Positions 7,101 through 10,915 of a stretch of DNA of 64,000 nt are shown piece by piece; positions within the stretch are counted from its first letter, which is position 1; the number at the start of each line of letters is the position of its first letter. This DNA comes from Clostridium rhizosphaerae (GTDB lineage Bacteria > Bacillota > Clostridia > Clostridiales > Clostridiaceae). The translations under genes were made by a program, and so were the position numbers. The notes beneath the pieces are model-generated. The model had not been told where the DNA came from, searched no databases, and saw nothing but the letters and a program-made list of their open reading frames with translations. The stretch is taken from positions 310,001 through 374,000 of the forward strand of contig NZ_JAESWC010000018.1 in assembly GCF_016765585.1 (NCBI RefSeq). Reading direction: 5' to 3'.

Positions 7101-8525
7101 TTAGTGAGGAAGAAGTATAAATCTTAGAATAAACAAAGCTGCCAATATATATATAATAGGGTGTACTTCCTTACGTTTTCCTGTCGCTAATTTTACTATT
7201 GGATAGAATATTATACCTGATGCTATTCCATTTGCTATACTGTAGCTAAAAGGCATAATTGCTATTGTAAAGAAAACTGGCAGTGCTTCAGTAAAATCGC
7301 TAAAGTCTATTTCTTTAATTGCTCCAAGCATTAATGCTCCAACAATAACTAATGCTGGTGCTGTTGCCTCTGGTGGAACAATCCCTACAATTCCACTGAA
7401 GAATAAGGAAAGAACAAATAAAATTCCAACAGTAAAGGAAGTCAGTCCAGTTCTTCCTCCTTCAGTAATACCTGCTGTAGATTCAACACAAGTTACTAAG
7501 GTGCTGGTTCCGAGCAATGAACCAAAAGTAGTTGCAACTGCATCGGAAAGCATTGCTTTGTGCATGTTTTTAACCTTACCATCAGGTTCTAGCATATTTG
7601 CCTTTTGTGCTGTTCCAACTAGTGCCCCTATAGTGTCAAATAAATCTACCAAGCTAAAAGTTATAATAACCATTAGGACACTGCTCAGCGCCCCCACAAC
7701 TCCAACACCTCCATGACCTAACAATCCTTTGAAATCTAAGTGAAATAAGGTTGGAGCTATAGATGGTGGAGCACTTAAAATCTTTACGCCTGAGAGATTT
7801 GTGATTCCCATAGGTATTCCTATTATCGTAGTTAACAGTATTCCTAAAAGCATAGCTCCTTTAATTCCTCTAGCCATTAAAATTGCTGTTATTGTTATTC
7901 CTATTATAGTTAAAAGAACTCTTACATTAGTAAAGTTACCAAAAGACACAAGTGTATCTGGATTTGCAACAATAATACCACCGCTTTTAAGCCCTATAAG
8001 AGCTATAAATAATCCTATTCCTCCTGAAATTGCAAGCTTCAAATTATGCGGCAGTGCATTTACTATTTTCTCTCTTATTGATGTTACTGTTATTATAATA
8101 AATAGAATTCCAGATATAAATACCGCCGCAAGTGCCTGCTGCCAGCTGTACTTTAATGTTATACAAACACTAAAAGTAAAGAAAGCATTAAGTCCCATTC
8201 CTGGTGCTAGTACAAAAGGAAGATTTGCATATAAAGCCATTATAAAAGTACCAATTGCTGCTGATATGCATGTAGCTGTAAACACAGAAGCAACTATTGG
8301 ATCATTAAGGGCATTAAAGGCTGCTGCAGCATCTCCTTTAACTCCATTAAGATTCATACCCGCAAATCTTAATATATTGGGGTTAACAAAAATAATATAA
8401 GCTACAGTTATGAAAGTAGTTATACCAGCTAATATTTCAGTTTTTAAATTAGTATTATTCTCTGAGAGTTTAAAAATTCTCTCAAATAATGACTTTTTTG
8501 TATCCTTAGTGTTATCACGATTCAT
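7101..8525 (-). CDS. NCS2-family purine (guanine/hypoxanthine) permease
   Basis: 474 residues with about 12-14 membrane helices. It belongs to the AzgA/PbuG branch of nucleobase:cation symporters: NPNILRFAGMN near the N-terminus, the PFVLAPGMGLNAFF motif near residue 105, and GALVGTAQKANML in the middle. It imports guanine and/or hypoxanthine. The guanine-class riboswitch in the leader supports a purine substrate and predicts repression when guanine is plentiful. The ATG follows TGGAGG. It is monocistronic, with a terminator at 7075-7094. Confidence 0.92.
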   Translation of the reverse strand: MNRDNTKDTKKSLFERIFKLSENNTNLKTEILAGITTFITVAYIIFVNPNILRFAGMNLNGVKGDAAAAFNALNDPIVASVFTATCISAAIGTFIMALYANLPFVLAPGMGLNAFFTFSVCITLKYSWQQALAAVFISGILFIIITVTSIREKIVNALPHNLKLAISGGIGLFIALIGLKSGGIIVANPDTLVSFGNFTNVRVLLTIIGITITAILMARGIKGAMLLGILLTTIIGIPMGITNLSGVKILSAPPSIAPTLFHLDFKGLLGHGGVGVVGALSSVLMVIITFSLVDLFDTIGALVGTAQKANMLEPDGKVKNMHKAMLSDAVATTFGSLLGTSTLVTCVESTAGITEGGRTGLTSFTVGILFVLSLFFSGIVGIVPPEATAPALVIVGALMLGAIKEIDFSDFTEALPVFFTIAIMPFSYSIANGIASGIIFYPIVKLATGKRKEVHPIIYILAALFILRFILLPH

Positions 8526-8571: not shown

Positions 8572-8650
8572 GGACTATGTGTAAATCCAATAGCGGAAAT
8601 GAAATTCTAAAATAAAAATAATGAGGCTACTAAGGATTCACCCATAGTCC
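8572..8650 (-). promoter_or_regulatory. Long alternative hairpin in the riboswitch expression platform
   Basis: On the minus strand, GGACTATGGGTGAATCC (8650-8634) can pair over 17 positions with GGATTTACACATAGTCC (8588-8572), with a G-U pair and one mismatch. The upstream strand includes the 3' side of aptamer helix P1, so the two structures exclude each other. A T-rich run (ATTTTTGTTTTT) follows about ten bases later. This is probably the switching element of the purine riboswitch. Which state terminates is not clear to me. Confidence 0.6.
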
Positions 8651-8709
8651 AAAGATTTACGGCCTTTGTGTAGAAACTCTCGAACCCTATTATCGAGAAT
8701 ATATGGATG
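8639..8709 (-). promoter_or_regulatory. Purine riboswitch aptamer, guanine class
   Basis: The minus strand shows P1 as CATCCATA / TATGGGTG (8 bp), P2 as TCTCG / CGAGA, the conserved J2/3 GTTTCTAC, P3 with loop GCCGTAAA, and the J3/1 sequence GGACTAT. The base that pairs with the ligand (position 74 in B. subtilis xpt numbering, after GA) is C, which specifies guanine or hypoxanthine rather than adenine. The permease gene begins about 115 bases downstream. It is the main content of the gene-free stretch 8526-8910. Confidence 0.93.
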
Positions 8710-8910
8710 GGATATTCAATTTTCTATGGGTAAATATTATCATCTCATTCTACAAAAGTCAACAATATTTTCAATTTGCATATCTGCTTTCTACGCTAAT
8801 TTTGATTAAATTATACATTCAAATCATAAAACTTTAATTTTAACTTTAAAAACTAAATAATAACAGCTATACTCTATATGTATTTATAAAAATATAAGGG
8901 GGATTTTACT

Positions 8911-9330
8911 TTGCTTAATATAGTTGTAATTGATGGTCAAGGCGGCGGACTTGGAAAATCAATAATTAGTAAATTAAGAACTGAGTTCTCTAATGAAATA
9001 AATATTACTTCTCTCGGAACAAATTCCCATGCCGCAAAAGCTATGCTAAAAGCTGGTGCTAACTCATCATATTTTGGTGATGAGTATATAACTAATTACA
9101 TAGATAAGAATGATATAAGCTGCTTGATTGCACCTATAGGTATTTTATGTACTGGTGGTTTAAATAATGAAGTTACACCTAACCTTTCAGAAGCTGTTTT
9201 TAAAAAGGAATGCACAAAATATATAATACCTTTAAGAAAACATGGCTTTTACATACCTGGAACCACAAGCTTAGAAATAAAAGATATACTTAATGAGATT
9301 ATTTACGATATAAAAAATGCCAAGAATTAA
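8911..9330 (+). CDS. DUF3842 family protein
   Basis: 139 residues. The N-terminus has a beta-strand followed by VIDGQGGGLGKSI, a glycine-rich loop like that of nucleotide-binding folds. The rest (GTNSHAAKAMLKAGAN, APIGILCTGGLNNEVTP) matches my memory of the DUF3842 family of Clostridia. Function unknown. It starts at TTG, with AAGGGGG 6-7 bases before it. Its 3' end overlaps that of the convergent permease gene by four bases inside a shared hairpin. Confidence 0.75.
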   Translation: MLNIVVIDGQGGGLGKSIISKLRTEFSNEINITSLGTNSHAAKAMLKAGANSSYFGDEYITNYIDKNDISCLIAPIGILCTGGLNNEVTPNLSEAVFKKECTKYIIPLRKHGFYIPGTTSLEIKDILNEIIYDIKNAKN

Positions 9331-9346
9331 TTTCTTGACATTTTTT
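9312..9346. terminator. Bidirectional terminator overlapping both stop codons
   Basis: A 15-position stem, AAAAAATGCCAAGAA / TTCTTGACATTTTTT, with one C-A mismatch. The stop codons of the DUF3842 gene (9328-9330) and the Ni/Co permease (9327-9329 on the minus strand) both lie in the loop. Confidence 0.8.
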
Positions 9347-10289
9347 TCACCAGCTTCAATAATAAAAATATTATTAGAATCCCTGCTGCTGCAGAGACTA
9401 CATATCCTAAAATTTCATTTACTCCTCGCAAATTGTAATCTGGCATAATTGCATTAAAATTAAAGCCATTTTGCATTCCTTTCGGTATAAATCCTAATAT
9501 GTCTTTTATTTCATCAGTGCCCCATTCTCCCCAAGCAGTTCCTGAAGCTAAAAGTCCTATGGGTGATAATAATACAAGTCCGATTATTAAATTATATATT
9601 GGTTTTAATTTTATTTTTTCACCTTCGTATATGCTGTCTGGAGAAACCTTCTTAATATAGCTGTATATTCCCAATGTTATAATTCCTTCTAATACTCCTA
9701 CTACTAATAAATGAGGTATCATCATAGCAGGTATAGATACTTTTAATCCATAAGGACAATATAATGGCAATCCAGCTGAGTCTTTAAAAAGCAAAGGTTG
9801 AATCCCAAACTCAATTGCAGCCGCTAAAGCCGCTAAATTAACACCTATATAGCTTGCTGCAAAAACTGCTGCAAGTTTACCTTTCTTACTATTAAATCTA
9901 TCACTTACATATTTATAAATCAAATATCCTGAAAACGGCATAATAAACGCCATATTGAAACAATTGGCTCCAAAAGCTAATATTCCCCCATCTCCAAAAA
10001 ATAAGGCTTGTATAAGCAATGCTGTAGTAATTGATATAGATGCTGCATAAGGACCTATCAGTATTGCCGCAAGTACGGCACCTACAGCATGTCCCGTAGT
10101 TCCTCCTGGCAGAGGTATATTAAACATCATAATTAAAAATGAAAATGCAGCACATACCCCAAGAAGAGGCAGCTTTTTTTTCTTAAAGTTTTTATTTACT
10201 TTAATTATTGATTTTTTCCAAGCTGGAATCATTGCGGCTCCTAAGACAGCGCAAGTTGATGGACTTAAAAAATTATCTGGTATATGCAT
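9327..10289 (-). CDS. ECF-type nickel/cobalt permease (CbiM/NikM with fused C-terminal CbiN/NikN-like part)
   Basis: 320 residues. It begins MHIPDNFLS, the hallmark of CbiM/NikM proteins, which bind the metal through the N-terminal amine, His2 and another His; His67 in GGTTGHAVGA fits that role in NikM. About six or seven membrane helices follow. The C-terminal 70 residues (after residue 250) hold an extracytoplasmic stretch and a last helix, resembling a fused PDGLE/NikN domain. No CbiQ (T component) or CbiO (ATPase) gene adjoins, so partners must be elsewhere. ATG after GGGGGAAG. A regulatory leader lies directly upstream. Confidence 0.87.
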   Translation of the reverse strand: MHIPDNFLSPSTCAVLGAAMIPAWKKSIIKVNKNFKKKKLPLLGVCAAFSFLIMMFNIPLPGGTTGHAVGAVLAAILIGPYAASISITTALLIQALFFGDGGILAFGANCFNMAFIMPFSGYLIYKYVSDRFNSKKGKLAAVFAASYIGVNLAALAAAIEFGIQPLLFKDSAGLPLYCPYGLKVSIPAMMIPHLLVVGVLEGIITLGIYSYIKKVSPDSIYEGEKIKLKPIYNLIIGLVLLSPIGLLASGTAWGEWGTDEIKDILGFIPKGMQNGFNFNAIMPDYNLRGVNEILGYVVSAAAGILIIFLLLKLVKKMSRN

Positions 10290-10316
10290 TTGTCTTCCCC
10301 CATTTTTAAAATAAAA

Positions 10317-10404
10317 AAGGTAGAGCTATTAAACTCTACCTTCGTGGTAAACAGTATAAAACACTTAATAAAACTATCACATCTTAATAAAACCTTCGTG
10401 GTTT
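10317..10404 (-). promoter_or_regulatory. Tandem-hairpin leader with intrinsic terminator (candidate antitermination switch)
   Basis: Reading the minus strand: hairpin 1 (10404-10390) is AAACC-ACGAA-GGTTT; hairpin 2 (10350-10336) is TTACC-ACGAA-GGTAG, with the same pentaloop and the same CC/GG closing pairs; then a terminator (10342-10317), AAGGTAGAG / CTCTACCTT followed by TTTTTTATTTT. The 3' side of hairpin 2 is the 5' side of the terminator stem, so only one can form. This is the layout of two-hairpin antitermination leaders (for example ANTAR targets). The loops are five bases, not the six with A1 and G4 known for ANTAR, so the ligand is open. Confidence 0.7.
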
Positions 10405-10504
10405 AATAAAATTATAACAATTTATATAAATATATTCAATATATATTAGTTATATCCTATTAAATATAAAAGCAATTACAAATATTTGATATTTCTATTT
10501 TCTA

Positions 10505-10915
10505 TTAATAGTTTTCTAAGGAAAACGCCCCAAATAAATATGTTATTCTTTCAATAATGCATTTACTTATTAAGCTTACTATGTCATTATAGTTTTTTAT
10601 TTTCACTAAATATTCTTCAAAGTTAGAACATATATTAACCTTATAAACCTTTGGCATACATTGGCTGGCTTTGAACTCCATAATTGGCAGTTGTTCCTTA
10701 ATGTGTCTATATATTTGTATTTCTGGTGCATAATTAAGCACTAAAGCACTTAATTTTTCTATCTCTTGTTTTATAGAATCTGTCAAGAATACATCACAAC
10801 ACTCTATATCAATAGAATATCCATATTCTTTATCTTCAAAGTTTTTGGTTCTGCTCTTAACAAATATTTTCACGATAGAAACTTCATCCGCTTCGGTATT
10901 ATAAAGGTGTCCCAT
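10505..10915 (-). CDS. Hypothetical protein, 136 residues
   Basis: Not recognised. It is soluble, slightly acidic and without signal peptide or membrane helix. It has five Cys, including a CC pair near residue 40 (IDIECCDVF), and alternates short strands and helices. The start ATG follows AAGAAGG at eight bases. It stands alone between the Ni/Co permease leader and a group of very small genes on the same strand. No terminator or partner gene points to a role. Codon use and a good ribosome site support it being real. Confidence 0.6.
   Translation of the reverse strand: MGHLYNTEADEVSIVKIFVKSRTKNFEDKEYGYSIDIECCDVFLTDSIKQEIEKLSALVLNYAPEIQIYRHIKEQLPIMEFKASQCMPKVYKVNICSNFEEYLVKIKNYNDIVSLISKCIIERITYLFGAFSLENY

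Follow-up and report, generated by a model that had tools for sequence, protein, structure and literature searches.

How a cell decides when to make a nickel or cobalt transporter is the question raised by the leader of the cbiM/nikM-type gene of Clostridium rhizosphaerae, in which the earlier note had seen two hairpins with the same loop ahead of a terminator and had guessed at a protein- or metal-responsive switch of an unfamiliar kind. The RNA of this leader corresponds to the minus strand of the window (i.e. the whole stretch of 64,000 nucleotides that was analysed), which holds the following parts:

10411 to 10439, minus strand: sigma-70-type promoter, TTGAAT-17-TATAAT, from which the +1 is predicted near 10404, where P1 begins
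10390 to 10404, minus strand: hairpin P1, AAACC-ACGAA-GGTTT, predicted to form the extreme 5' end of the transcript, with covariation
10352 to 10389, minus strand: A+T-rich linker of 38 nt, which contains most of the CTTAATAAAAC repeat and varies among relatives
10335 to 10351, minus strand: hairpin P2 (the putative antiterminator), TTTACC-ACGAA-GGTAGA, which excludes the terminator, with covariation
10316 to 10343, minus strand: intrinsic terminator stem-loop of 12 pairs, with a U-rich tail to about 10307
9327 to 10289, minus strand: the controlled gene, a CbiM/NikM-type Ni/Co ECF transporter component with a PDGLE domain (Pfam CbiM 1.7e-63, PDGLE 1.3e-13)
8911 to 9330, plus strand: DUF3842 protein gene (Pfam PF12953, 6.7e-34), convergent with cbiM and, from its co-occurrence, a candidate trans-acting factor

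P1 and P2 do carry the same five-base loop, ACGAA, and the 11-mer ACCACGAAGGT, with two copies in the 64-kb window (expected 0.00 from 100 shuffles), has no more than these two in the whole host genome of 4.85 Mb; both lie in the leader hairpins. The mutual exclusion that had been claimed for the second hairpin and the terminator was borne out as well, since the terminator (10343-10316) reuses in its 5' arm the loop end and the 3' arm of P2. Folding of the 101-nt leader gives z = -3.46. In all 18 leaders folded, out of the 47 of the host's family, the second hairpin overlaps the terminator, and the free fold (with the terminator) beats a forced P1+P2 fold by 2.6-14.3 kcal/mol, so that the terminator is the more stable fold and read-through probably requires a bound factor. 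For 44 of the 47 family leaders the position of the P1 loop could be fixed, and in 35 of these 44 a -10-like box ends 10-15 nt before it, compared with 11.8% in shuffled upstream DNA; from this spacing it seems that in most leaders the RNA is predicted to begin with P1. The repeat CTTAATAAAAC that had been reported for the linker is present (at 10364-10374 and 10383-10393, in plus-strand coordinates), but its conservation was looked for in the aligned relatives, among which the linker varies in both length and sequence, and was not found; the repeat is probably incidental.

Elsewhere around cbiM, a purine riboswitch (Rfam RF00167, 78.7 bits) lies at 8625-8726 of the minus strand, upstream of a Xan_ur_permease-family gene (7101-8525, minus strand). 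Upstream of the promoter, a gene of 136 amino acids (10505-10915, minus strand) has no Pfam match, and a gene that reads similarly stands in the same place at the congener locus L135.

As a search set for leaders, 80 CbiM-type relatives were collected from GTDB genomes. Model R1, at E <= 0.05, recovers the leaders of 13 of them, and 12 of these belong to the seed; full or partial variants of the motif were judged by eye at L022, L031, L036, L038 and L059. In the seed alignment (MAFFT, 13 leaders, i.e. the window and 12 relatives), the five-base loops give 93.5% of stem cells paired, compared with 73.9% after shuffling and at most 40.6% with slid partners (38.7-40.6% when the partner is slid one column), and changes on both sides occur in 12 of the 12 pairs. 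The 60 aligned leaders, in an alignment that was fitted to the model, give 94.3%, compared with 73.8% and at most 42.1% respectively, again with double changes in 12 of 12 pairs. The hairpin pair is thus conserved and covaries strongly in both sets.

Model R1 gives 48 matches in 42 of the 194 genomes of the host's family, 31 of them new and the other 11 belonging to the host or the seed. Within the host genome, the matches C1:340707 (E 2.4) and C1:77698 (E 4.8) were rejected because the hairpin pair is absent, and the fourth match (E 0.25) overlaps the window's leader itself. The motif is rarer in the phylum than in the family: of 398 phylum genomes, 17 (host included) have a match to model R2, and among the 16 non-host genomes both hairpins were found in 9 by scan and one hairpin only in four (G371, G382, G424 and G575), with no convincing hairpin pair on reading in G220, G444 and G553. 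Nor does the leader fall into a family already catalogued in Rfam 15, which gave no match at gathering score for the window's leader, only unrelated families far below threshold at E up to 10, and no match for the leaders of 11 relatives' loci. Among the listed papers of one open-access library no report of the element or of nickel antitermination was found, and the main text of a bacterial attenuator paper (PMC2965389) contains neither 'cobalt' nor 'cbi'.

The loops themselves suggest the rule A-Y-G-A-A/G across loci. In 53 family loci position 2 is C in 96 of 96 loops (70 ACGAA and 26 ACGAG), and 23 other loci, which include 6 family genomes of a second DUF3842 clade, have 27 ATGAA, 11 ACGAA, 2 AAGAA and 1 AGGAG, a contrast in letters that is biased, since ACGAA loops were the basis of the model and only A-N-G-A-A/G loops were counted. 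Ahead of one cbiM each, L126, L136 and L137 show two successive motif matches, perhaps two copies of P1 per P2.

The first gene behind the leader is CbiM-type at 28 of the 47 family loci, an ECF S component at 5, CbiQ at 4, NiCoT at 3, a NikB-like permease at 2, and a NikA-like binding protein, LarC and FmdE at 1 each; it is unknown at 1, and none was found at 1. The recurrence in 42 of the 194 family genomes is mostly before Ni/Co uptake genes, with LarC as a gene specific to nickel. The gene families were checked on representatives (CbiM, NicO, LarC, binding-protein-dependent permease, SBP_bac_5, FmdE and ECF_trnsprt); LarC behind the motif is an NCBIfam equivalog above cut-off, and the NikA-, NikB- and NiCoT-specific NCBIfam models score below their cut-offs, so that similarity is the basis of those three names. 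Across the wider phylum, the motif is followed by NikA-like proteins, FmdE, CooT with CbiM, NikM-type CbiM and DUF3842 itself. Of 40 motif loci, 10 have hypB-like genes and 3 have urease genes at a distance of up to about 8 kb, and one locus reads, in order, DUF3842, hypB-like gene, motif, nik-like permeases with binding protein and ATPases, motif, binding protein and urease (urease alpha being identified, the nik ATPases and both small urease genes by reading only). These neighbours (LarC, urease, hypB/hypA and CooT) indicate nickel rather than cobalt, and the same probably applies to the window's own CbiM, a protein which alone cannot separate the two metals. The guess at a metal-linked switch thus holds up, with a covarying element that is met again and again ahead of Ni/Co and nickel genes and has no Rfam match. 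Of the two outcomes named beforehand as speaking against it, a hairpin pair not conserved in relatives and a match to a known Rfam family, neither occurred.

Some of the genes behind the motif are less easily assigned. At L108, L112, L119, L120, L129, L133, L155 and L157 (the last one scanned) the motif stands ahead of an ECF transporter S component without an assigned substrate, and in some of these loci the next gene reads as a methyltransferase; this is possibly a nickel-chelate importer. The motif also precedes proteins outside known families, at L127 (no Pfam match) and L197 (no Pfam or NCBIfam match); the first gene of L156 resembles that of L197 by BLAST, and both are followed by genes that look like parts of a NikK/NikM-type transporter. 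For a neighbour of 900 amino acids in L130, CODH was rejected, as Pfam gives an FAD/Fe-S oxidoreductase.

Other cbiM loci may be controlled differently. No cobalamin riboswitch replaces the motif in the 20 motif-less CbiM loci scanned (of the 80), a scan in which a T-box was met elsewhere in L047. Near the promoter of 16 of the 80 cbiM loci, all without motif (L009, L012, L015, L021, L055, L060, L063-L065, L067, L069-L071, L074, L076 and L078), there is a C-tract/G-tract pattern (like ATCCCCC..GGGGCTTG), which we take to resemble CsoR/RcnR-type operators and which is perhaps another clade's way to control cbiM. Upstream of cbiM in L003-L006 and L030, TCTCA-N3-TGAGA-like palindromes or half sites form a possible third control element.

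The distribution of DUF3842 makes it a strong candidate for the loop-binding factor. It is present in 40 of the 42 motif genomes compared with 20 of the 152 others (p = 5e-24, 194 family genomes), and in 29 of those 40 it lies at most 5.5 kb from a motif. Where the genus was listed, genus g18 has DUF3842 in 8 of 8 motif genomes versus 3 of 40 without motif, and genus g25 shows no visible link (10 of 11 versus 3 of 4, p = 0.48). In the 80 CbiM loci DUF3842 occurs in 7, all 7 with motif, i.e. it tracks the motif and not cbiM. A check on 20 of these 80 organisms found it above cut-off in 7 of 8 with motif versus 2 of 12 without ('motif' here including by-eye variants, and L048, one of the 8, already belonging to the family set). 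The motif stands directly ahead of the DUF3842 gene in four loci (L151, L167, L186 and L204), and DUF3842 is the commonest non-transporter gene near the motif, in 26 of 40 neighbourhoods that were hand-picked from motif matches, partly after distances were known (the next being the hypB-like genes, in 10).

In the phylum, DUF3842 is far commoner than the motif (181 of 398 genomes, compared with 17), and it occurs in 13 of the 16 non-host motif genomes versus 167 of 381 (p = 0.004), or in 12 of 13 when G220, G444 and G553 are dropped (p = 0.0008). The motif occurs without DUF3842 in G042, G111, G224 and the genome of L059. Around the 30 top-scoring distant DUF3842 loci, some of them cut by contig ends, the hairpin pair was found within about 1.5 kb in only 2, and for the 20 family genomes with DUF3842 but without a genome-wide motif match, a motif near DUF3842 was also not seen in 7. 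The protein falls into two clean clades, which go with two loop habits in a loop sample biased by the model. In distant genomes it adjoins genes read as hypE, nadE or cobU. In G047, G098, G108 and G173 (L151-L154 and L210-L213) a CooT gene adjoins DUF3842, and L269 and L270 have CooT behind a motif.

The predicted fold of DUF3842 is Rossmann-like (pLDDT 94.6) with a glycine-rich loop, and the copy in the window has a pI of 6.7. Foldseek gives as best match an FMN-dependent UbiX-like decarboxylase (TM about 0.5), with no RNA-binding protein among the matches listed, and a PDB sequence search with the DUF3842 profile gave a best E of 0.17. Such a fold gives no sign of RNA binding, and it is therefore from the co-occurrence that we infer a link between DUF3842 and the leader. 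Among the listed papers of the open-access library no report on the function of DUF3842 was found.

Following these results, the leader is, in our judgement, probably a transcription attenuator of a nickel regulon, worked by a loop-binding protein that nickel releases and that is likeliest DUF3842. The transcript would begin with P1, and as RNA polymerase advances the RNA would fold either P2 (the antiterminator) or the overlapping terminator. Unaided, the leader would form the more stable terminator and the gene would be off. When nickel is short, a protein reading the two like A-Y-G-A-A/G loops, probably as a dimer with one subunit per loop, would clamp P1 and P2 and so prevent the terminator from closing, allowing transcription to reach the uptake genes; nickel would then release the protein. 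That DUF3842 itself is this nickel-responsive RNA-binding antiterminator of paired hairpins, acting when nickel is scarce and controlling its own gene in some genomes, can be put forward tentatively, as a reading of its role somewhat less likely than not.

Several known systems are comparable in part. In BglG/LicT RAT and PyrR control, a protein likewise decides between antiterminator and terminator, and PyrR shows that a metabolic-enzyme fold can bind RNA loops; RAT, however, is a single asymmetric hairpin, the PyrR loop is different, and the signals are sugar (BglG/LicT) or pyrimidine (PyrR). The NiCo (czcD) riboswitch, presumably Rfam RF02683, is likewise RNA control tied to Ni/Co genes. 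It has been described upstream of putative cation efflux genes in PMC9294342, whereas the present leader stands mostly before uptake genes and has no Rfam match (and therefore no NiCo/czcD match). NikR regulons have target genes of the same kind, nik transporters (PMC2667541), but NikR acts on DNA and not on RNA. NikR_C matched 11 of the 194 family genomes, at 22-27.5 bits with a cut-off of 22, and NikR was not found in the host genome by a search whose control was positive in 5 of 14 named genomes; NikR as the factor was rejected, being rare in the family and absent from the host. CooT (PF10133) was rejected on distribution, occurring in 22 of the 194 family genomes, among the 42 motif genomes only in G066 and G088, and not being found in the host genome.

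The closest analogue is formed by the ANTAR-target antiterminators (the EutV, NasR and AmiR leaders), with two small hairpins of like loop, the second excluding an intrinsic terminator. According to PMC3369931, a dimerising protein reads these loops, and the published model is off by default, with read-through upon binding of the factor. The present leader could then be the target of an ANTAR protein with unusual five-base loops, and it does share this architecture of tandem like-loop hairpins, the second overlapping an intrinsic terminator. ANTAR targets, however, have six-base loops with A1 and G4, whereas the loops before these Ni/Co genes have five, A-Y-G-A-A/G, so that A1 holds but the conserved G is at position 3, a mismatch that had been noticed from the outset. 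The linker, moreover, is 38 nt in the window, compared with 5-12 nt for the eut genes of E. faecalis in PMC3369931. No ANTAR domain was found in the host genome by a search that matches 118 of the 194 family genomes, and ANTAR occurs in 17 of the 42 motif genomes (one below cut-off; none found in 25) versus 101 of the 152 others. On the loop rule and this distribution an ANTAR protein was rejected as the factor, and such a target is very improbable; failing in hexanucleotide loop, G4 and protein, the leader therefore seems to work like an ANTAR target without being one by these tests. It could also simply be a DNA operator followed by an ordinary terminator, the repeat being a repressor site over the start point, since P1, a palindrome around a 5-bp centre, coincides with the predicted transcription start. 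Yet the stems vary by compensatory double changes with the loop alone fixed, of which an operator would show the reverse, and the second copy shares sequence with the terminator in each of the 18 folded leaders, which makes an operator scarcely credible.

A riboswitch, in which the tandem hairpins would themselves be the receptor of Ni2+ or a nickel compound and work without a protein, would suit a short, structured RNA in front of Ni/Co and nickel genes. It is nonetheless unlikely, as the conserved part consists of two separate 5-nt loops on short stems with a variable linker, a conserved junction or core was not seen, Rfam gave no match, and the minimum free energy fold computed without ligand contains the terminator in each of the 18 leaders that were folded. 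A different protein could also bind the same attenuator, with DUF3842 sharing the neighbourhood as a nickel-metabolism protein (an enzyme or a handler of metal or nucleotide). Its Rossmann-like fold with a glycine-rich loop, its being much commoner than the motif and missing from a few motif genomes, and its distant copies beside genes read as hypE, nadE or cobU are all consistent with this, but DUF3842 alone among the non-transporter genes is found in a majority of the 40 motif neighbourhoods, it tracks the motif rather than cbiM, and its two clades go with different loop letters (in a biased sample). We consider another binder quite possible, if somewhat doubtful. An attenuator read by DUF3842 would remain the reading to start from.

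The leader belongs to a conserved new family that seems to work like dual-hairpin antitermination and probably controls nickel uptake, which would give many clostridia an RNA-level answer to this task. One likely circuit joins several types of Ni/Co transporter to LarC, the protein of the nickel pincer cofactor, and some of the loci also have hypB-like and urease genes nearby. The uncharacterised DUF3842 family gains a directly testable role, and dual-hairpin antitermination would be seen not to be confined to ANTAR proteins. If the proposal for DUF3842 is true, NikR would have in this protein a counterpart at the RNA level, and the RNA-binding regulators would include a new kind.
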